DNA from: an uncultured archaeon
Lineage (GTDB): Archaea; Thermoplasmatota; Thermoplasmata; Thermoplasmatales; Thermoplasmataceae
Assembly (NCBI GenBank): GCA_000965745.1
Contig: CP009479.1
Coordinates: 1,126,457-1,190,456 of the forward strand
Length of the DNA stretch: 64,000 nt
Reading direction: 5' to 3'
The notes beneath the pieces were generated by a model that had not been told where the DNA came from, did no database searches, and saw only the letters and a program-made list of their open reading frames with translations. Both the position numbers and the translations under genes were made by a program. This document shows positions 7,397-62,718 of the stretch, one piece after another. The stretch's first letter is position 1. Each line of letters opens with the position of its first letter.

Positions 7397-8482
7397 ATGG
7401 AAGGAAAATTAAGTATGAACCAACTTAAGACTTTGAGCTCCCTTTCCTCACCAGAGAAAAACTGGCATGGCGCCCCAGAAAAAGGATTCTCAGAGATTAA
7501 GGAGTGGTTCTCTAAGAATAATCTGAGTATTTCAGATAATGGACTCTCTAAAATACTGATCAAATTGAGAGAAGGCGGCTATGTAAAGAAATTTGTAAAT
7601 TCTGAAGGAAAGATGAAATACAGAATCACCACTTTGGGTGCAAACCACCTCCAGAAATACTACTGGCCTTTGATCGACACCCTATCCATTATGGATAGGG
7701 AAAAATCATTATATTTTATGTTCTCTCATTTTGGTTCGGACTATCATTATATAGAAGAACTTGGCCAGCGTCCTGGAACCTCATACGTATCCTATTACAC
7801 GGTACCTTTACCCAACGAATTTTATTACAATATGTTATCCACCATGGCTGTTAAATTAGTGTCGGGCGAACTGGACAATATTATACCTAATGGAAAATGG
7901 GATAACAGCGATGAGAGACATGATATCTACTTAACGACTCATTACAATCTTGCAGAACTAAATGAGGTTGCAGAAACCTTTTGGCAATTATGGTCTCATG
8001 CCCATTCGGACATTGAATCTTTAACTGACATTGTGGCACATTTGATCAGCAACAAGAGTAAGTGGATTCAAAGGGATCTCTTTTCCTCTATGGCAACAAT
8101 GCTAGTATCTACTTCTGTATGGCTGATGAACAAAAGTGAGGATGCAGAGATGCAAAATAGAGTGGAGGAGCTTGATAAGAAATTAGGTGAGATCTTCCTT
8201 AACAGAATGGACTTGACATCAGACTTGGACAAAGAGTTGATCGAAATATTTATTGAAGATATTGAAGCTGAAAAAGACCCGCTTGAAGATGAGAGAGTTA
8301 TGAGAAACAAGTTGATATTGGAACATGAATATGAAGGTTTCAACAGCTATATGATACAGGATTATGTTAGAGGAGCCGCGATTAAGAAAGGAGAATTAGA
8401 CTTTATTGTGAAGGCAGAAAACTATCTGAAGGGGACACAAGGGATTCTCATAAGGACTCTGATGTATCAACAAGGCAAATAG
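7397..8482 (+). CDS. Winged-helix DNA-binding protein of the replication module
   Basis: 361 residues. Residues ~5-85 look like a winged helix-turn-helix: helices around SMNQLKTLSSL and ISDNGLSKILIKLREGGYVKKF, then the wing VNSEGKMKYRITTLGANHLQ. The remaining ~270 residues are acidic and mostly helical without a recognised domain. It is transcribed divergently from the primase-helicase operon across a 52-bp promoter region that carries a palindrome, the usual arrangement of a plasmid or provirus regulator (copy control or repressor). The first ~80 residues support DNA binding well; the rest is unassigned. Confidence 0.68.
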   Translation: MEGKLSMNQLKTLSSLSSPEKNWHGAPEKGFSEIKEWFSKNNLSISDNGLSKILIKLREGGYVKKFVNSEGKMKYRITTLGANHLQKYYWPLIDTLSIMDREKSLYFMFSHFGSDYHYIEELGQRPGTSYVSYYTVPLPNEFYYNMLSTMAVKLVSGELDNIIPNGKWDNSDERHDIYLTTHYNLAELNEVAETFWQLWSHAHSDIESLTDIVAHLISNKSKWIQRDLFSSMATMLVSTSVWLMNKSEDAEMQNRVEELDKKLGEIFLNRMDLTSDLDKELIEIFIEDIEAEKDPLEDERVMRNKLILEHEYEGFNSYMIQDYVRGAAIKKGELDFIVKAENYLKGTQGILIRTLMYQQGK

Positions 8483-8498
8483 AAAATTCATAGGTGTT

Positions 8499-9668
8499 CT
8501 AATTGTCATAATTAGAAAGTAGATCATGCTGGATTGTATTGCTTTCCTTCTTACTTTTTTTTCTGGTGTTATGCTTATGCTTCGAGAGATGCATTAAAAG
8601 ATTGGCTTTCTTCTTATCGACTGGATCTGGCATTTCGTCAGGCTTAATCGAGTTTAGATTATCAATAAGCTTTTTTATATCATTTCTAACCTTATAGGTC
8701 CCTATCCCTCCTTGTTGCCTTGTGACTAGATTTGAGTCCTCCATTATTCCAAATAATTCTTCAGCGTATTCTTGGGAAACCGTGACTTCGTCATTCTCAA
8801 AAGCCCCGATAATGGCGGAAATCGCGGTCGATTTCGTAAATTGTGAGCTCGGGCTAAGAAAGAAGTCTGATGTCTTCATCAGAAGTATTATGTTCACATA
8901 ACGGTCGACTACTTCAGGCTTGGAAAGTCTGAAAGTTGACTCTATGTGCTGGCTTCCGTTAATAAGCCATCTTTTAAGTCTTTCACTATCGTTAACGCAA
9001 AAATTGTTTGAAGACTCTGAGCAATTTGTCCATTTGGAAATACCTGACAAATTACCGTAGGCATATTTTATTCTATAGTTAGAAATCCCTTGAGCTATAT
9101 TTATCCCCCACAAAATAGTCTTACACTTGGGTAGACTGAAGTTCTCATCGCTTACTCTTGCGTCAATACCATTAGATTGGTCTAAAGTCAGTTTAAGAAC
9201 ACTGGTTAAATCATCAAAAAGATCGCTGTATGAGAACACAACGAACTCAGATGAGCCTTTGACGTATTGCTTTCCATATAACCAATGTAGGCGATTATGG
9301 CTAAATAGTTGCTCTCTTTTCTTCTGGTCTTCCATTACCAGTTCAAAATCCGTTTTCTTAGAGCATATGTCTTCCCAGATCTTCTTAACTCTTCCATTCG
9401 ACTTCACTTCAATGAAAATAGGCTTAACAGATCCATTTTCGAGTTCTTGTTTGTCACATAGCATGACGTCTATGGAGCCCTTAATCCTTTTATCAGGATG
9501 TAGAATCTCTGTGGCAACAAAAGCATGCCCGTGTCCTTCGTCTGACGTGAATGCATCAACAAGATACCCAACGAGGTAGGAATGAAGGTAAGGTCTTCTA
9601 AGTTGATCATATAATATCTCTAATACATTATAGTCGTACTTAGATCTTCTTTGCTTGCTCTTGCCTAT
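8499..9668 (-). CDS. PD-(D/E)XK-type nuclease, start codon non-canonical or frameshifted
   Basis: The first canonical start is ATG at 9464, giving 321 residues. The same frame, however, is open back to 9701 with protein-like sequence containing SYLVGYLVDAFTSDEGHGHAF, ILHPDKRIKG and SIDVML. This upstream part supplies the Asp (codon 9468-9470) that pairs with IFIEVKS about 21 residues later: the D...ExK catalytic core of PD-(D/E)XK endonucleases. Starting at 9464 would delete the Asp. No ATG, GTG or TTG exists in the extension; an ATA at 9666-9668 overlaps the stop of the upstream gene (ATAG), and the frame is -1 relative to that gene. So the protein is made from an ATA start, by frameshifting from the gene above, or the gene has lost its start. 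The C-terminal part ends in a basic tail (NTRKKSKKES). Confidence 0.6.
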   Translation of the reverse strand: MGKSKQRRSKYDYNVLEILYDQLRRPYLHSYLVGYLVDAFTSDEGHGHAFVATEILHPDKRIKGSIDVMLCDKQELENGSVKPIFIEVKSNGRVKKIWEDICSKKTDFELVMEDQKKREQLFSHNRLHWLYGKQYVKGSSEFVVFSYSDLFDDLTSVLKLTLDQSNGIDARVSDENFSLPKCKTILWGINIAQGISNYRIKYAYGNLSGISKWTNCSESSNNFCVNDSERLKRWLINGSQHIESTFRLSKPEVVDRYVNIILLMKTSDFFLSPSSQFTKSTAISAIIGAFENDEVTVSQEYAEELFGIMEDSNLVTRQQGGIGTYKVRNDIKKLIDNLNSIKPDEMPDPVDKKKANLLMHLSKHKHNTRKKSKKESNTIQHDLLSNYDN

Positions 9669-10738
9669 CCTATCACCGTCGCTTCCTTGATGTTTTCCCC
9701 TTCATCAATCGCTGAATATATTTGCACAGCACGATAACTGTCGCCTTTCAACGTGGTAACAGTCGCATAGTTGTTCGTAATCGTCAAGGAGTAGTGACCA
9801 AAGTTTATCCAACCTTCTGCCCCTTCTCCCTGGTAAACTATATAGGCTGTAATCATCCAATCTTCCCGCTTGTCCATTATAACTACTATGGGCCTCTCCA
9901 TCCTGATACCCTGTGGAGGTGGGGCAAGAGAAGCAACAATCTTGTCAAAGTAGTTCTGAGTGTCGATTTCTTTGTCAAATTCTATCAAGACCTTCTTCTT
10001 AGAAGATAAATTACTTTCTGTTGGACTTGTAAAAATCGCCTTACTAGCTTGGGTAAAAATATGCTTGCTGGTTTCACTAATCTCGTCTAGCAACTCATTA
10101 AAGAATTCAATATGTTTTGTAGGATTCTCCACTAGTAATATTCCATGGTGATGAATCTCAAATTCATCTGTCTTGTTTGTCTTCAAGGAAAAAGTCGCCC
10201 TATATGGCTTCAACCCCATCTTCTTGTCTTGGTCAAGTCTTTGAAGTATGTAATCTAAATCTGAATGGTCTTTGAAGTACGATTGCAACTGTTTCTTTCC
10301 AGCACGGTACTCCCTCAGAATGTAATTATCATATTCCGTCTCAAGAATGCTGAACATCTTGCTCTTTGTTACGAATACTGGGTAAATTTCATAAAACCTA
10401 AGCTTGTACGCAAGCAGTTCAATATCACGTCTTGATTTTACAGTCCCAAAAGCTAATGAGAGACCCGTTTTGTTCCTTAGTAGAACTATATCTGTATGGT
10501 CCCTCAATGGCCCATCGATAAAAGACACTCGAACCGCTCGTTCTGAGACTTTTTCCTTCTTAAATTGACCACTGGTTGATTGTCTTTTTTTCGCCTCTAT
10601 TACGGGGGAAAAAAAGAAGGATCGAAACTTCCCCCTATCTTCACTGAGGAATTCTATATCACTCAACTTAAGAATTGACATCATAGCATCATCTTTACCT
10701 GGAATACCAGACCATGAAAAGTCTTTTGCACTATCCAA
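9665..10738 (-). CDS. Uncharacterised 357-residue protein paired with the PD-(D/E)XK nuclease
   Basis: Not recognised. It is a soluble protein with a charged, Lys-rich middle, a HHHG stretch (FEIHHHGILLVENP) and a C-terminal beta-rich part (RPIVVIMDKREDWMITAYIV; INFGHYSLTITNNYATVTTL). There is no signal peptide or membrane segment. It is the promoter-proximal gene of a two-gene unit: its TAG stop (9665-9667) overlaps the ATA/-1 frame of the downstream nuclease. Upstream lies AT-rich DNA with a TATAAATATATT stretch at 10842-10853. The pairing and the accessory setting suggest a joint role, perhaps defence or element maintenance, but nothing in the sequence proves that. Confidence 0.6.
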   Translation of the reverse strand: MDSAKDFSWSGIPGKDDAMMSILKLSDIEFLSEDRGKFRSFFFSPVIEAKKRQSTSGQFKKEKVSERAVRVSFIDGPLRDHTDIVLLRNKTGLSLAFGTVKSRRDIELLAYKLRFYEIYPVFVTKSKMFSILETEYDNYILREYRAGKKQLQSYFKDHSDLDYILQRLDQDKKMGLKPYRATFSLKTNKTDEFEIHHHGILLVENPTKHIEFFNELLDEISETSKHIFTQASKAIFTSPTESNLSSKKKVLIEFDKEIDTQNYFDKIVASLAPPPQGIRMERPIVVIMDKREDWMITAYIVYQGEGAEGWINFGHYSLTITNNYATVTTLKGDSYRAVQIYSAIDEGENIKEATVIG

Positions 10739-11398: not shown

Positions 11399-12223
11399 AT
11401 GGTTGATTTAAATATGAATTTGCGGAAAGTTATTGGCAATCCTCTGTCAATAGTTCTCGTGGTATCTCTTTCAGTTCTTGTGATATTCTCCGCATATTCA
11501 AACCAGCTGCCTCCGATTAGTGTTGTGGAGTCCGGAAGCATGCAGCATTCAAGCACATGGACCCCCGGAGTCATAAACACAGGCGACCTGATAATGGAGA
11601 AAAAGGTTTCAAATCCCGTGCAGGATGTTGTCACCTACGTTCAGGGAAGGAGCACGAATTTCACGACATATGGCGATTACGGGGAAGTCATATTGTATGA
11701 TGCACCCGGTAACTATAGCATTGTCCACAGGGCTATGTTCTACCTTGATTGGAACGGAACCTATCCTGTAGTGGTCGGGTACAGCGGCCAGAGCTGGATC
11801 AATATAACACGTGGCGAGGTGATAATCAAAGATGTCGGATACAGCCACAGAAATCTCATCGTTTCAGTGAGCAGTTTTGTAGGTCAGAGTGGATTCATAA
11901 CAATGGGGGACAACAATCTTGGCACCTCAAGCTTGAATGTTTCCACAGGGGGGGCATTCATTGCAGCGGACCAGAACATATTCGGCTTCTCGCCAATTAA
12001 GCCGTCCAGCGTGACAGGGATAGCATACGGCCATATCCCGTGGGCAGGATTGATTAAGCTGAATATAATGCGTGTTCAGGGCGACTGGCAATATTATAAT
12101 GACGTCCCTCAGTACAGCTACTTCTATCTCTCACTTTCAATCTCCGCTATTCTGGCAGGCTTGATCGTATCGCTCTATCTTCTTGACAGGAACGGCAAAA
12201 AGAAGGCTCTGAGACGGAATTAG
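11399..12223 (+). CDS. Signal peptidase I, archaeal S26B type
   Basis: 274 residues. One N-terminal membrane helix (LSIVLVVSLSVLVIFSAY), then the catalytic serine in PISVVESGSMQHS, the general-base His in YSIVHRAMFY (archaeal Ser/His dyad instead of bacterial Ser/Lys), and ITMGDNN as the conserved box E region. A second membrane helix near the C-terminus (YLSLSISAILAGLIVSLYLL) ends in a basic tail. It removes signal peptides from secreted proteins on the outer face of the membrane. A GTTTAA box at 11385-11390 would place the transcript start near 11413, so the ATG at 11414 (MNLRKV) may be the true, leaderless start. Confidence 0.9.
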   Translation: MVDLNMNLRKVIGNPLSIVLVVSLSVLVIFSAYSNQLPPISVVESGSMQHSSTWTPGVINTGDLIMEKKVSNPVQDVVTYVQGRSTNFTTYGDYGEVILYDAPGNYSIVHRAMFYLDWNGTYPVVVGYSGQSWINITRGEVIIKDVGYSHRNLIVSVSSFVGQSGFITMGDNNLGTSSLNVSTGGAFIAADQNIFGFSPIKPSSVTGIAYGHIPWAGLIKLNIMRVQGDWQYYNDVPQYSYFYLSLSISAILAGLIVSLYLLDRNGKKKALRRN

Positions 12224-54744: not shown

Positions 54745-54829
54745 TGCGAGGGATGGGATTCGAACCCACGAACTCCTACGAGACAGAATCTTAAGTCCTG
54801 CACAGTTGGCCAGGCTTTGTTACCCTCGC
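54745..54829 (-). tRNA. tRNA-Leu (anticodon TAA)
   Basis: Class II cloverleaf on the minus strand: acceptor GCGAGGG/CCCTCGC with discriminator A, anticodon stem CAGGA/TTCTG around loop CTTAAGA (anticodon TAA), a long variable arm TCTC-GTAG-GAG, and T-arm GTGGG-TTCGAAT-CCCA. The upstream side on the minus strand has a TTTAATATATT box about 25-35 nt before the 5' end. The 5' 26 nt of this gene are repeated at 57061. Confidence 0.93.
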
Positions 54830-54877
54830 AATCAATCGGTTTATACTCCGGGAATATATTAAAAGTGCTGAAATTCG
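54804..54877. repeat. Direct repeat copy 1: tRNA-Leu 5' part plus its promoter
   Basis: 74 bp identical to 57061-57134, covering 26 bp of the tRNA-Leu 5' region and 48 bp of its upstream promoter. Similarity continues beyond the identical core with scattered differences through the small-gene cassette, so the repeated unit is about 0.35 kb. It behaves like an attachment-site or segmental duplication flanking the toxin-antitoxin block. Confidence 0.85.
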
Positions 54878-55189
54878 ACGAATTAGGGAAAGGTGTCCTG
54901 TCTTGAGAATTGATTGTGGGAGAACACTGGGTTAACCCGACTTGAAAGATTTTCATGTAATACGAGTATATACAGGTATATACACGTATTACAAATCAGA
55001 TAACGAATTTGTATGGAGATTTCTCGATAATTTGTCCAACATCAGAAAATAACGGTTTAAATGTTGATTGTGAACTATTATTCATAGCAATGAACAGCCA
55101 AAGAAAGAGACAGAGGAACAGGCAGCCATAAGGAAAGAGATCAGGATAATTTAGAGAAATAATTGCAGTAATTTTATTCATAAAGGGAT
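54878..55189. other. Promoter cassette A and remnant of a small gene
   Basis: Contains a repeated-family copy: AT-rich GTATATAC elements near 54963, then AACGGTTTAAAT at 55051-55062. The position matching the start codon of the intact family member at 57333 is ATA (55084-55086), followed by a -1 shift and then a frame reading EQPKKETEEQAAIRKEIR up to a TAG at 55152. This corresponds to the MAKDKPEKKETEDQQKLRQE start of the 57333 gene, so this copy is a decayed pseudogene. Confidence 0.6.
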
Positions 55190-55651
55190 TTATGCCTTAA
55201 TACCTTCTTTCATGGTTATCATGTCATGTAGGACAACACTCATGATTCCTGCCACAAATGTTCCTATACCTATTACGAACATGCCCGACAGGAAACCAGA
55301 GGGAACAGTCCAATGGAGACCCGGGTAGTATTCAAAAGTTGAAGTTAGAAAGTCCATAGAATTCAAGATAAAGGCAGATGCCGTCAGAATAAGTCCAATA
55401 ACGGCGATAATGAATATTCTTCCTTTTGGCTGATAACCTAATCCAAATGCAAGCAAGACTGAGGCACCAGTTGAAATTCCTCCAGGTATATTTGCTAAAA
55501 TTCGATTATATGTGTTCAAATTGGAAAGCGAAGGGTTATTCACAAGCCAAAGTTGAATTATTTCAGCTACTATTTCTGCAGCGAGAAAAATTACTATTGA
55601 AGATATCAGGAACACCCTTGATTGCTCTAGTGTAATCCCTTTGCTTTTCAT
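55190..55651 (-). CDS. Four-helix membrane protein inside the tRNA-Leu repeat island
   Basis: 153 residues with four hydrophobic helices (VFLISSIVIFLAAEIVAEII; GGISTGASVLLAFGLGY; IFIIAVIGLILTASAFIL; GFLSGMFVIGIGTFVAGIMS). No family recognised. It lies between promoter cassettes A and B, on the opposite strand to them, within the segment bounded by the 74-bp repeats. It may be cargo of that segment. Confidence 0.6.
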   Translation of the reverse strand: MKSKGITLEQSRVFLISSIVIFLAAEIVAEIIQLWLVNNPSLSNLNTYNRILANIPGGISTGASVLLAFGLGYQPKGRIFIIAVIGLILTASAFILNSMDFLTSTFEYYPGLHWTVPSGFLSGMFVIGIGTFVAGIMSVVLHDMITMKEGIKA

Positions 55652-55700
55652 ATTATAATTATCCTATATAACTATAAAATTATTGTCCAGTCCTAGAAAA

Positions 55701-55770
55701 TAATGGTTTAAATGCAGATTGTGAATTATTATTCATGGCAAAGGGACAGTCTAAGAAAGAAAAGTGGTAG
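55701..55770 (+). promoter_or_regulatory. Promoter cassette B with an 11-codon mini-gene
   Basis: TAATGGTTTAAAT at 55701-55713 with ATG at 55735, exactly 28 nt from the first T of TTTAAA. The reading frame MAKGQSKKEKW ends at TAG 55770. It matches the first residues of the 67-residue gene at 57333, so it is either a truncated paralogue or a leaderless micro-peptide. Confidence 0.55.
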
Positions 55771-55859
55771 TTTGAAAAACATTATGCACAATTGAGCGCC
55801 ATAATGTGAGTCATATAGTTATTCATAATTATTATATACAACAATAGAATGTTTGGTGC

Positions 55860-56045
55860 ATGGTGCAAACTACCATCCAGGTGTCCAAGGAGACCAGAGA
55901 GAAGCTCAAGAAGATAGGTGGCAAAGGCCAGACTTACGATGAAATAATTGAAAAGCTTCTTGAGATCGGTCAGAAAGTAGCATTTTTCAACGAACTTGAC
56001 AGGATTTCTGATAGCGAGGAGTTCATACCTCTTGACGAACTATAA
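55860..56045 (+). CDS. Antitoxin, RelB/VapB-like
   Basis: 61 residues: TTIQVSKETREKLKKIGGKG at the N-terminus forms a ribbon-helix-helix-like DNA-binding unit, then QTYDEIIEKLLEIG, and an acidic C-terminal tail (SDSEEFIPLDEL) that would bind the toxin. Its stop overlaps the start region of the RelE-type toxin gene, the classic order antitoxin first. ATATACAAC-type AT-rich DNA precedes it. Confidence 0.78.
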   Translation: MVQTTIQVSKETREKLKKIGGKGQTYDEIIEKLLEIGQKVAFFNELDRISDSEEFIPLDEL

Positions 56046-56310
56046 AGTTCTAGTTTCCCAGACCGCAGCCAAAGAACTGAGGGTTTTAGAGAAGAGTCTG
56101 CAGGACCGGATAAAGGAAAGACTGAGGGGACTGTCAAAAGATCCTATTAATAGTACTGGAAGATTGGACGTAAAAAAGCTTTCAGGAACTGGAAGAAATT
56201 ACAGCAGGCTTATGGTAGGGGACTACAGAGTTATATTTTTCGTGGATGGTATGAAAATCAAAGTTGTAAGGATAGCTAAGAGATCTGATGTCTATTCTTG
56301 GCTGGATTAG
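56032..56310 (+). CDS. Toxin of the RelE/ParE family
   Basis: 92 residues if started at TTG 56032, which overlaps the antitoxin end; the ATG at 55996 would add 12 residues antisense to the family pattern. Family features: YKVLVSQTAAKELRVLEKSL (N-terminal strand and helix), then RLDVKKLSGTGRNYSRLMVGDYRVIFFV with the conserved Arg-containing G-DYRV strand, and IKVVRIAKRSDVY. RelE-type toxins cleave mRNA at the ribosome; ParE relatives act on gyrase. The Arg in RLMVGDYRV and in IAKRSDVY fit RelE. Confidence 0.85.
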   Translation: MTNYKVLVSQTAAKELRVLEKSLQDRIKERLRGLSKDPINSTGRLDVKKLSGTGRNYSRLMVGDYRVIFFVDGMKIKVVRIAKRSDVYSWLD

Positions 56311-56373
56311 TGCATGGCTGCCATCAATCGAAAATCTTAATAGACTATCTGGTTTAACTAGGGTTGAGCTAGT

Positions 56374-56634
56374 TTGACACTGAAGTTGAAAGTTGGAAAA
56401 AAAGGTTACGTGATTCTTCCTAAGGCGCTACGAGAAGCTGTTGGAATCGAAGAAGGAGATGATCTGACAGTGAGTGTTAACGATGGGATTACATTGACAC
56501 CTTCCAAGAAGTTCGACAAATCTGCATTCGAGAAAATCGCAGAAAAACACAAAGATACAATTCTCTCATTGAAGGATGCAAAAGCCCCAGAACCGGGTGA
56601 AGCCAAAAAATACTCCTTGGAGGATGAATTTTGA
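56374..56634 (+). CDS. Antitoxin of VapB type with AbrB fold
   Basis: 86 residues from TTG 56374. AbrB/SpoVT swapped-hairpin signature: KLKVGKKGYVILPKALREAVGIEEGDDLTVSVNDG. A C-terminal acidic/helical tail (FEKIAEKHKDTILSLKD; EPGEAKKYSLEDEF) would wrap the VapC toxin. The stop overlaps the toxin start by four bases (TTGA), so the pair is co-translated. A GGTTTAACTAGGG box lies about 24 nt upstream. Confidence 0.85.
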   Translation: MTLKLKVGKKGYVILPKALREAVGIEEGDDLTVSVNDGITLTPSKKFDKSAFEKIAEKHKDTILSLKDAKAPEPGEAKKYSLEDEF

Positions 56635-57035
56635 CTGGCGTGTTCATAGATACTAACTTCTTTATTTACATGAACACACCAACGAAAACTCTGGACAGAT
56701 TCATAGAGCACTATGAGGTAGAACTATCCAATAACAGAACCTTCACCAATATGATAGTTCTGGATGAGCTCATTTATGTTTCCAAGAAGAAATATTCCAT
56801 CCCTGTTGAAGTGACTCTTGAATTTATTGATTCCATGATACTTCCGTTCACTTCTATATTACCACTTGAGGAAAATGATTATCACGTATTGAAAGACATG
56901 ATAAACTATTGCCCCAAACCGAGTGACGCATTGATTGCCTCTTCCATGAAACGCAATTCTATCATGGACATCCTTAGTGAAGACAACGACTTTGACAAGG
57001 TTCCTGGGATTAACAGGAGATGGTTGGCCCTCTGA
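56631..57035 (+). CDS. VapC-type PIN-domain toxin (RNase)
   Basis: 134 residues from TTG 56631 or GTG 56640. PIN-domain acidic residues: Asp in GVFIDTNFFIYM, Glu in DELIYVSKKK, Asp in KPSDALIASSMKRNS and the terminal acidic pair in ILSEDNDFDKVPGI. These Mg2+-binding residues make VapC an endoribonuclease. It is coupled with the AbrB-type antitoxin. Its 3' end is 26 nt before the second 74-bp tRNA-Leu-derived repeat. Confidence 0.85.
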   Translation: MTGVFIDTNFFIYMNTPTKTLDRFIEHYEVELSNNRTFTNMIVLDELIYVSKKKYSIPVEVTLEFIDSMILPFTSILPLEENDYHVLKDMINYCPKPSDALIASSMKRNSIMDILSEDNDFDKVPGINRRWLAL

Positions 57036-57060
57036 GAAGGTACATTACAGGTCCCATTAA

Positions 57061-57134
57061 AGTTGGCCAGGCTTTGTTACCCTCGCAATCAATCGGTTTA
57101 TACTCCGGGAATATATTAAAAGTGCTGAAATTCG
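57061..57134. repeat. Direct repeat copy 2: tRNA-Leu 5' part plus promoter
   Basis: Identical over 74 bp to 54804-54877, including 26 bp of the tRNA-Leu 5' end, but without the rest of the tRNA: it stops abruptly at AGTTGG, preceded by unrelated sequence. Downstream similarity continues into promoter cassette C. The two copies lie 2257 bp apart in the same orientation. Confidence 0.85.
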
Positions 57135-57300
57135 TTGAATTAGGGAAAAGTGTCCTGTCTTGAGAATTGGATGCGGGAGAATACTGGATTAAATGGAGAT
57201 GTAATTTTTTTTTCTGTAATATACGTATATATCTGTATTACAAATCAAGTTAGGAATTTTTATGAGGACTTCTCAATAATTTGACCAACCCAGTGAAACA

Positions 57301-57332
57301 ACGGTTTAAATATTGATTGTGAACTATCACAC
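57301..57332 (+). promoter_or_regulatory. Promoter cassette C (leaderless) of the 67-residue gene
   Basis: ACGGTTTAAAT then N4 and ATTGTGAACTAT, with TTTAAA exactly 28 nt before the ATG at 57333, the same spacing as the other three copies. The conserved ATTGTGAAYTATTA block between TATA and start probably includes a regulator site or initiator. Confidence 0.6.
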
Positions 57333-57536
57333 ATGGCAAAAGACAAGCCTGAAAAGAAGGAAACGGAAGATCAACAGAAGTTGAGACAAGAGATTAGAAA
57401 GTTATGGAGCGATATTGAGCCTCAACTGATTACCATGGCCCACAAACTCGAAGATGCAGGTTGCATTGAAAACAAGGACTATATCTGGCTCAAGTCAAGA
57501 ATCTCGAATTTGTCCAAACATTTCGATAAACAGTAA
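57333..57536 (+). CDS. 67-residue charged helical protein, intact member of the cassette family
   Basis: MAKDKPEKKETEDQQKLRQE at the N-terminus, then EIRKLWSDIEPQLITMAHKL, KLEDAGCIENKDYIWLKSRI and a C-terminal basic helix. Predicted soluble, mostly helical. No family recognised. Decayed relatives of its N-terminus sit behind the same promoter at 55084, 55735 and 61472. The intact frame and conserved promoter argue that this copy is expressed. Confidence 0.6.
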   Translation: MAKDKPEKKETEDQQKLRQEIRKLWSDIEPQLITMAHKLEDAGCIENKDYIWLKSRISNLSKHFDKQ

Positions 57537-60071: not shown

Positions 60072-60260
60072 ATGATAACCTTACAAAATTAAATTCAACC
60101 ATATACGCAACGAAATGGCTATCTCACTGACTACAGACCGGATACATTTACAGAGAATAAGCTGTGTTTTATAGCCAACTTTTTGAATCAATCCGATAAC
60201 ACCTTGCCATGTCATAGTAGTTGGATAAATCAATCAGAAATGCTTCCAGAAGAAAGTCGA

Positions 60261-60303
60261 ATTCTTAATCCATAGGTCGGGGGTTCGAACCCCTCGGACC
60301 CGC
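60261..60303 (+). other. tRNA-Lys(CTT) 3'-half remnant
   Basis: The stretch ending GGTCGGGGGTTCGAACC plus CCTCGGACCCG reads as anticodon loop TTCTTAA, 3' anticodon strand TCCAT, variable loop AGGTC, full T-arm and 3' acceptor strand. The 5' half (acceptor, D-arm, anticodon 5' strand) is absent upstream. A tRNA 3' half without its 5' half is the usual footprint of an integrated element at the distal attachment site, or of a decayed one. Confidence 0.6.
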
Positions 60304-61332: not shown

Positions 61333-61642
61333 GGATGCGTCAGGAATTTGCATACGAGATGGTTGCTTATTAATAGTACAGAGCTGCCAGTAAAAGGGTA
61401 GAAAGAACGAACAAAATGACTGTCGTATCCATGAAAATAACGGTTTAAATAACAATTGTGAATTATTAGTCACGGTAAAAATGCAGCGTAAATCCAGAAG
61501 GATTGAGCAGTACTGGTAAAAGCGTGTTCTTTCTCAAAATTAATTTAAGTATCTTGTTAGCTATCACCGTACGAGCACATTCAAAGATTCGCTGAAGAAG
61601 CCGTCTGAATCTTTACATCTGGATGTGAGAAGAGGCATAAAC
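61333..61642. other. Intergenic region with promoter cassette D
   Basis: AACGGTTTAAAT at 61439-61450 followed by ATTGTGAATTATTA and an ACG (61472-61474) exactly 28 nt after the first T of TTTAAA, where the start codon would be. The frame then reads KMQRKSRRIEQYW to a TAA. It is a decayed copy of the cassette small gene (ATG changed to ACG), or initiates at ATG 61481. The remaining sequence holds no gene. Confidence 0.5.
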
Positions 61643-62539: not shown

Positions 62540-62640
62540 GTTCTGACAGAAATTTCAGCCGTGCACAGTCTGTCAAGTTCCGTCACCCCTGCAATTCGGT
62601 TTACACTCCTGCACTGTATTATAAGGGCTGAAATTTGAGA
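62540..62640 (-). repeat. Divergent third copy of the tRNA-Leu/promoter repeat
   Basis: Aligned with the tRNA-Leu gene and its flank, this stretch keeps GACAGAA, TGCACAGT, a TCAAGTTCCGTCACCCCTGCA segment matching the tRNA 5' half, then TCGGTTTACACTCC and GGGCTGAAATTTGA matching the promoter side. It is clearly related but heavily changed and has no matching 3' acceptor strand, so it is a pseudo-tRNA remnant in the same orientation. Confidence 0.45.
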
Positions 62641-62718
62641 ATGGACGCCTGAAAAATAATTTCGTTTTATCAAGCTCATGGCGCCACAAGTTAAGTATGG
62701 AATCTTTATGATACTTCA

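Follow-up and report, generated by a model that had tools for sequence, protein, structure and literature searches.

Architecture of the tRNA-Leu(UAA) locus

An intact tRNA-Leu(UAA) gene stands on the reverse strand of the 64,000-nucleotide stretch of DNA analysed here (the window), and its first 26 nt recur upstream, together with 48 bp of promoter, on the far side of a segment rich in toxin-antitoxin genes (Table 1). The window belongs to a genome that we call G000 (G numbers denote species genomes of the same family), a 2.23-Mb single contig that clusters with metagenome-derived genomes of the acid-loving Thermoplasmatales, UBA447 among them. The original prediction of a perfect 74-bp repeat at 54804 and 57061 was confirmed, as was the longer imperfect repeat around it, which amounts to ~0.3 kb of weaker similarity. 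Positions 54804-54953 and 57061-57210 agree at 89% over 150 nt, the first 74 being identical, and 54970-55090 and 57219-57339 agree at 78% over 121 nt. In BLAST, the first 297 nt of the repeat match the other copy with E=2.7e-75, which excludes chance.

Open reading frames and Pfam searches bear out the predicted content of the segment between the two copies, namely a membrane protein, a RelBE/ParE-type pair, and an AbrB-PIN pair. The membrane-type protein returned no Pfam match, and the VapC-type gene ends 26 bp from the displaced tRNA half. We refer to this segment as unit 1. A promoter-like leader with the start of a small gene is present in four copies, most of them degenerate (55034-55099, 55685-55754, 57281-57340, and 61434-61492).

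Table 1 Features of the tRNA-Leu(UAA) locus and of the units upstream of it (window coordinates).
Feature	Position	Strand	Evidence and remarks
tRNA-Leu(UAA), intact, insertion target	~54745..54829	-	ARAGORN and Rfam RF00005
Inner copy, 74-bp perfect repeat (26 nt tRNA 5' half + 48 bp promoter)	54804..54877	-	
Inner copy, longer repeat, including leader, promoter, and start of small gene	54804..55090	-	89% to 54953, 78% for 54970-55090
153-aa membrane-type protein, unit 1 cargo	55190..55651	-	ORF
Antitoxin, RelBE/ParE-type pair	55860..56045	+	PF24434, E=4e-9; weak VAPB_antitox
RelE/ParE-type toxin, exact start uncertain	56026..56310	+	PF05016 ParE_toxin, E=4e-7
AbrB/MazE-type antitoxin	56374..56634	+	PF04014, E=3e-13
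PIN-domain (VapC-type) toxin	56631..57035	+	PF01850, E=9e-13
Displaced tRNA-Leu(UAA) 5' half (26 nt) + promoter, outer boundary of unit 1	57061..57141	-	nhmmer 56.4 bits, E=1e-15
Outer copy, longer repeat	57061..57339	-	
67-aa small gene, unit 2	57333..57536	+	Relatives near tRNA-Lys(CTT) in other genomes; sole intact copy of its leader/start family in the window
Conserved arm (element end)	60188..60258	-	82% over 71 nt, E=4e-15
tRNA-Lys(CTT) 3' half (nt 34-75), abuts arm	60263..60303	+	97.6% (98% over 42 nt), E=1e-14
Older decayed tRNA-Leu 5' half + promoter, outer boundary of unit 2	62545..62645	-	nhmmer 24.7 bits; BLAST 73%

A stack of units separates the tRNA from its neighbour

A profile built from intact loci detected a third tRNA-Leu 5' half in the window, older and decayed, that the original prediction had missed. 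In relatives, tRNA-Leu(UAA) is flanked by an LSm gene (then Lrp, Alba, GGPS, and ALDH genes), which in G000 lies 10.3 kb upstream of the tRNA; the interval holds unit 1 (2.26 kb), unit 2 (5.5 kb), and a further 2.5 kb. This distance, combined with the additional displaced halves, indicates that the tRNA and its old neighbour were parted by a stack of units. The 67-aa gene of unit 2 was considered as a mobility gene and rejected; it is present in 9 of 77 genomes, often near tRNA-Lys. In the G066 genome there are two tRNA-Leu(UAA) loci (L149 and L155), one adjoined by the 67-aa gene family and the other empty, which may reflect contamination or a second copy.

Empty and occupied sites in relatives

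The relatives are mostly draft metagenome genomes, with G000, G016, G010, and a few others as single contigs. At least 17 genomes have tRNA-Leu(UAA) 98-383 bp from LSm with the insert absent, and thus supply the empty site predicted for an integrated element; the same arrangement with other boundaries and no empty site was not encountered. Displaced 5' halves at tRNA-Leu(UAA) occur in G000, G015, G016, G071, G072, G073, G074, and G075, and both G000 and G075 have two. LSm is 205 bp from the displaced half in G016 and 98 bp in G074, which is the empty-site spacing and what a split of the tRNA by the insert would produce. A profile search found no displaced half at the inserts in G006, G010, G013, G045, G077, and G088, and this counts against the integration model.

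A second tRNA gene in G000 is arranged in the same manner. tRNA-Leu(UAG) lies at a distance of 0.4 Mb, and a second copy of its 5' half, comprising 44 nt and ~53 bp of promoter (91%), is found ~1.05 kb upstream, with a MazEF pair between the two. Among 47 tRNA calls in the stretches of G000 examined, duplicates of a 5' half plus promoter were confined to tRNA-Leu(UAA) and tRNA-Leu(UAG), the remaining tRNAs having 3'-half copies or none. As a background check, the half profiles were run on 663 kb of G000, and matches above 15 bits were solely tRNA genes and halves already known. Across the family, displaced tRNA-Leu(UAG) halves are found in G000, G015 (three, plus a longer pseudo-tRNA), G043 (two), G047, G048 (short), and G074, with MazEF, VapBC, or a second AbrB-VapC type as cargo, and tandem copies in relatives number up to four. 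The longer pseudo-tRNA-Leu of G015 (contig C54, locus L180) sits at the far end of its array (u = 11564-11684, in bp upstream from the tRNA 5' end), is decayed, and extends past the anticodon, unlike the remaining halves.

Toxin-antitoxin genes were counted by hand in 16 of the 19 units examined, and close relatives of the window VapC were found in six other Thermoplasmatales records, all adjoining tRNA-Leu(UAA). Addiction to these genes may keep the units in place, and the stabilisation originally suggested fits the frequency with which the units carry them. Around units in G015, G043, and G047 the inner promoter differs in type from the outer one, a mosaic that points to further recombination. 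Simple models in which the element brings the promoter, or in which the target is copied, were both set aside, each failing for some promoter pairs.

A common junction and a shared arm

All displaced halves lie upstream and in a uniform orientation. The best preserved stop at tRNA nt 43-44, within the anticodon arm, at both tRNA-Leu(UAA) and tRNA-Leu(UAG), and there run into a shared arm of 45-75 bp (GACTTACTTCTGnAAGnAnTTCTGACnnATTTGTCCAnCGATTATGAC) that keeps the same register at both genes. This arm is present in MazEF, VapBC, and AbrB-VapC units alike. Apart from the tRNA-Leu copies, every arm with a known neighbour is joined to a tRNA-Lys(CTT) 3' half. G000 has two such junctions, one of them in the window, and G015, G067, and G072 carry them as well; integrase remnants accompany those of G000 and G067. 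In the displaced copy at 57061, tRNA nt 27-44 and the arm are no longer present, and for this reason unit 1 looks incapable of excision by an integrase; it could be removable solely via homologous recombination across the 74 bp.

An integrase adjoins the junction in relatives

An arm search led to a contig of G085 (C5) on which a promoter, a tRNA-Leu(UAG) 5' half, the arm, and a gene for a 324-aa protein follow one another on one strand. The protein matches PF16795 (Archaeal phage integrase) with E=5e-42, and the nearest solved structure is the probable integrase entry 3uxu (E=6e-12), which we take to be the SSV1 integrase. Profile and pairwise alignments, made for the G085 protein, show that the aligned R, K, R, and Y positions are kept. 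The tRNA half ends ~209 bp before the integrase start and is therefore outside the gene. The same order of promoter, tRNA-Leu(UAG) half, and arm in G049 (contig C40) leads into an integrase gene fragment. At tRNA-Lys(CTT), G067 (contig C91) carries the arm and a broken integrase gene, and in G000 an arm with an N-terminal integrase fragment adjoins an apparent transposase gene.

The window units contain no integrase. Elsewhere in G000, PF16795 fragments were found, and an intact integrase of the G085 subfamily was not. Plasmid and phage matches to the G085-type integrase are distant (26-36%; Thermococcales and Sulfolobales plasmids and SSV-type viruses), and no relatives of it were found in viral contigs. 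Among the matches listed from a scan of 77 genomes for PF00589 integrases, none lies inside a tRNA-Leu(UAA) or tRNA-Leu(UAG) unit. The PF00589 integrases of G065 and G057 are 15-24 kb away, and both sites are empty; the integrase of G006 (contig C60), 5.4 kb from a tRNA-Leu, was rejected, as this tRNA reads as the CAG type and a displaced half was not found.

Symmetry of the Lys and Leu anticodon arms

The anticodon arm of tRNA-Lys(CTT) reads ATGGATTAAGAGTCCAT in antisense, and that of tRNA-Leu(UAG) reads ATGGATTTAGGGTCCAT in sense, an agreement of 15 out of 17 bases. When all tRNA strands in the G000 stretches examined were compared, the best non-self matches to the Lys arm were tRNA-Leu(UAG) and tRNA-Leu(CAG) in the sense direction (15/17 for both). 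As a consequence of this likeness, an integrase of the Lys site would encounter tRNA-Leu the other way round, so that the exchange falls on the 5' side. The tRNA-Leu(UAA) arm is a weaker match (11/17) and counts against the model; the proposed step from the UAG gene to the UAA gene is accordingly tentative.

A model of integration at the anticodon arm

A regenerated tRNA gene at one end and a displaced fragment at the other, as in a tRNA-targeted element, bound the segment in the window; an integrase gene within the element, a further mark of such elements, is absent from the window units, and the PF16795 gene is present in relatives only. Of the two origins first offered for the repeat, the footprint of a 5'-targeting integrase has gained the empty sites, the common end at nt 43-44, and the PF16795 gene beside half and arm in two relatives, and site-specific integration is well supported. 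Overall, we consider it probable that the window segment is an integrated element that has no integrase today and belongs to a series stacked in tandem at the anticodon arm of tRNA-Leu(UAA), having entered via a PF16795 integrase used in reverse. A tRNA 5' half and promoter would come with the element and keep the tRNA whole, and the original 5' half and promoter would be pushed off together with the old neighbour gene. We therefore read the 5' half and promoter of the intact tRNA-Leu(UAA) as element-derived. The recombinase would most likely be an SSV-type tyrosine integrase (PF16795) with the anticodon stem-loop GGA-N7-TCC as its site. At tRNA-Lys(CTT) it would act in the usual way, restoring the 3' half, and at tRNA-Leu the site would be used in reverse, restoring the 5' half and promoter.

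How the units came to lack an integrase bears on their mobility rather than on their origin by insertion. They may be stranded relics of larger integrase-bearing elements, the integrase having been deleted in place and the remainder kept by the toxin-antitoxin genes, and we give this reading an even chance. In keeping with it, the PF16795 integrases next to arms are broken in G000, G049, and G067, arms and halves are lost in several units, the window unit included, and most MazEF units differ in the stretch that separates their toxin-antitoxin genes from the tRNA. What such relics explain less easily is the sharing of cargo. A MazEF cassette measured from the crossover (arm plus MazEF, ~795 bp) is common to G000, G015, G043, and G016, with MazEF also in G048, and involves two tRNA genes; G000 (UAG) and G016 (UAA) have nearly the whole 1-kb unit in common, the tRNA half and promoter excepted. 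Sharing across genomes and tRNA genes is easier if the cassette moved as it is, and favours movement as a small unit, although such movement does not account for the swapped tRNA half. We tentatively propose, and hold as somewhat less likely than the deletion of integrases in place, an archaeal cassette system in which a PF16795 integrase acting in trans would carry toxin-antitoxin cassettes of ~1-2 kb, themselves without an integrase and sharing the arm and an anticodon-arm core, between tRNA-Lys(CTT), tRNA-Leu(UAG), and tRNA-Leu(UAA), with reverse use of tRNA-Leu giving a new 5' half and promoter at each insertion. That the same MazEF unit is found at both tRNA-Leu(UAA) and tRNA-Leu(UAG), each time with another tRNA half, is not explained by simple integration and counts against the integration model.

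That last observation is one that transposition with a long target duplication would accommodate, the same MazEF unit carrying the matching half at UAA and at UAG. Here ~97 bp of target (44 nt of tRNA and ~53 bp of promoter) would be copied and the half would not be element-borne, and the G000 tRNA-Leu(UAG) copies are indeed similar over just -52 to 44. We nonetheless judge this very improbable: inner and outer promoter types differ in G015, G043, and G047, a transposase is absent from the units, and tyrosine-integrase elements, to which the shared arm belongs, make no target duplications of ~97 bp.

Also very improbable, and not supported by the evidence, is ordinary segmental duplication, in which homologous recombination copied the tRNA-promoter stretch and the toxin-antitoxin genes between were stabilising. 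The window copies, near-identical over 74 bp inside an older 78-89% stretch, could reflect gene conversion or duplication, but many genomes have this junction with cargo that varies, the end point and arm do not change between two tRNA genes or across several genera, displaced halves stand at the empty-site distance from LSm, and an integrase gene adjoins the same junction.

Relation to known systems

SSV-type elements use the 3' half of a tRNA and split their own integrase gene on integration. The G085 protein resembles the integrases of such elements (e.g. SSV1) in its match to PF16795 and to SSV1 integrase structures and in its aligned R, K, R, and Y, whereas the tRNA-Leu units described here use the 5' half. 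Integron cassette arrays, which have attC-type hairpin sites and a resident integron integrase, consist of small tandem units without a recombinase of their own, often with toxin-antitoxin genes and with a shared recombination end. The units here are likewise small, tandem, recombinase-less, often furnished with toxin-antitoxin genes, and joined by a common recombination end; they differ in that each carries a tRNA half and promoter, and an integron integrase was not noticed beside the array.

The mechanistically closest known system is pTN3 of Thermococcus nautili, the integrase of which acts at tRNA-Leu with a minimal site of nt 2-44 (PMC5495485). In both cases tRNA-Leu is targeted via its 5' half up to the anticodon, the 5' half is restored, and the tRNA gains a new promoter (PMC5495485, PMC8371274). 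Unlike pTN3, most units here are without an integrase, and they are tandem, rich in toxin-antitoxin genes, and bounded by a repeat that includes a tRNA-type promoter. The attachment site of pTN3 is inside the integrase gene, whereas the half in G085 is upstream of it. Sequence comparisons of the G085 integrase covered SSV1 and plasmid pT26-2. According to a review (PMC8371274), pTN3-like integrases are the only ones in archaea to integrate at a tRNA 5' half; the present loci show such use in another archaeal order, and the near-mirror Lys and Leu anticodon arms offer a simple, testable reason for an integrase to switch from the 3' to the 5' half. The loci also provide a natural series of tRNA genes with replaced promoters.

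Cis-mobilizable elements (CIMEs) lack integration genes, retain their attachment sites, and pile up in tandem at a single target (PMC5704250). Our integrase-less, att-bounded tandem units are partly similar, with sites kept in several relatives' units and the outer site damaged in the window. CIMEs were described from bacterial conjugative elements, whereas the units here are ~1-5 kb and a conjugative parent was not noticed for them. A report on the integrated element SXT states that a toxin-antitoxin system promotes maintenance of the element (PMC2654960), and the pairs stacked beside these tRNA genes would be useful for testing whether addiction holds integrase-less elements in place. A 2025 survey of acidophilic archaea reports islands adjoining tRNA-Leu and toxin-antitoxin genes in islands (PMC12302457); within the open-access literature covered here, the passages of that survey that were considered do not describe a stack of tRNA halves and toxin-antitoxin genes.

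Other tRNA genes in G000

Several further loci in the G000 genome carry tRNA fragments or integrases. At locus L140 (C1:321000-336000), two tRNA-Lys(CTT) 3' halves stand 2.66 kb apart (7542-10313), with two VapBC-type pairs and a membrane protein inside; the halves adjoin an arm copy and a PF16795 integrase fragment, and the intact tRNA-Lys(CTT) is distant, at 78.6 kb. The tRNA-Leu(CAG) gene (C1, L139:7865-10347) has a 3'-half duplicate (nt 36-87, 100%) 2.4 kb downstream, beside a distant PF16795 integrase fragment, and is a case of the tRNA-Leu family used in the usual orientation. Three 3'-half copies lie downstream of tRNA-Thr(CGT) (L104) and one lies downstream of tRNA-Thr(TGT) (L113), and these are ordinary integration scars. 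PF00589 integrases adjoin tRNA-Pro(TGG) (C1:748809-749309) and, with an internal stop codon, a tRNA-Met/Asn pair (C1:1306656-1307195).
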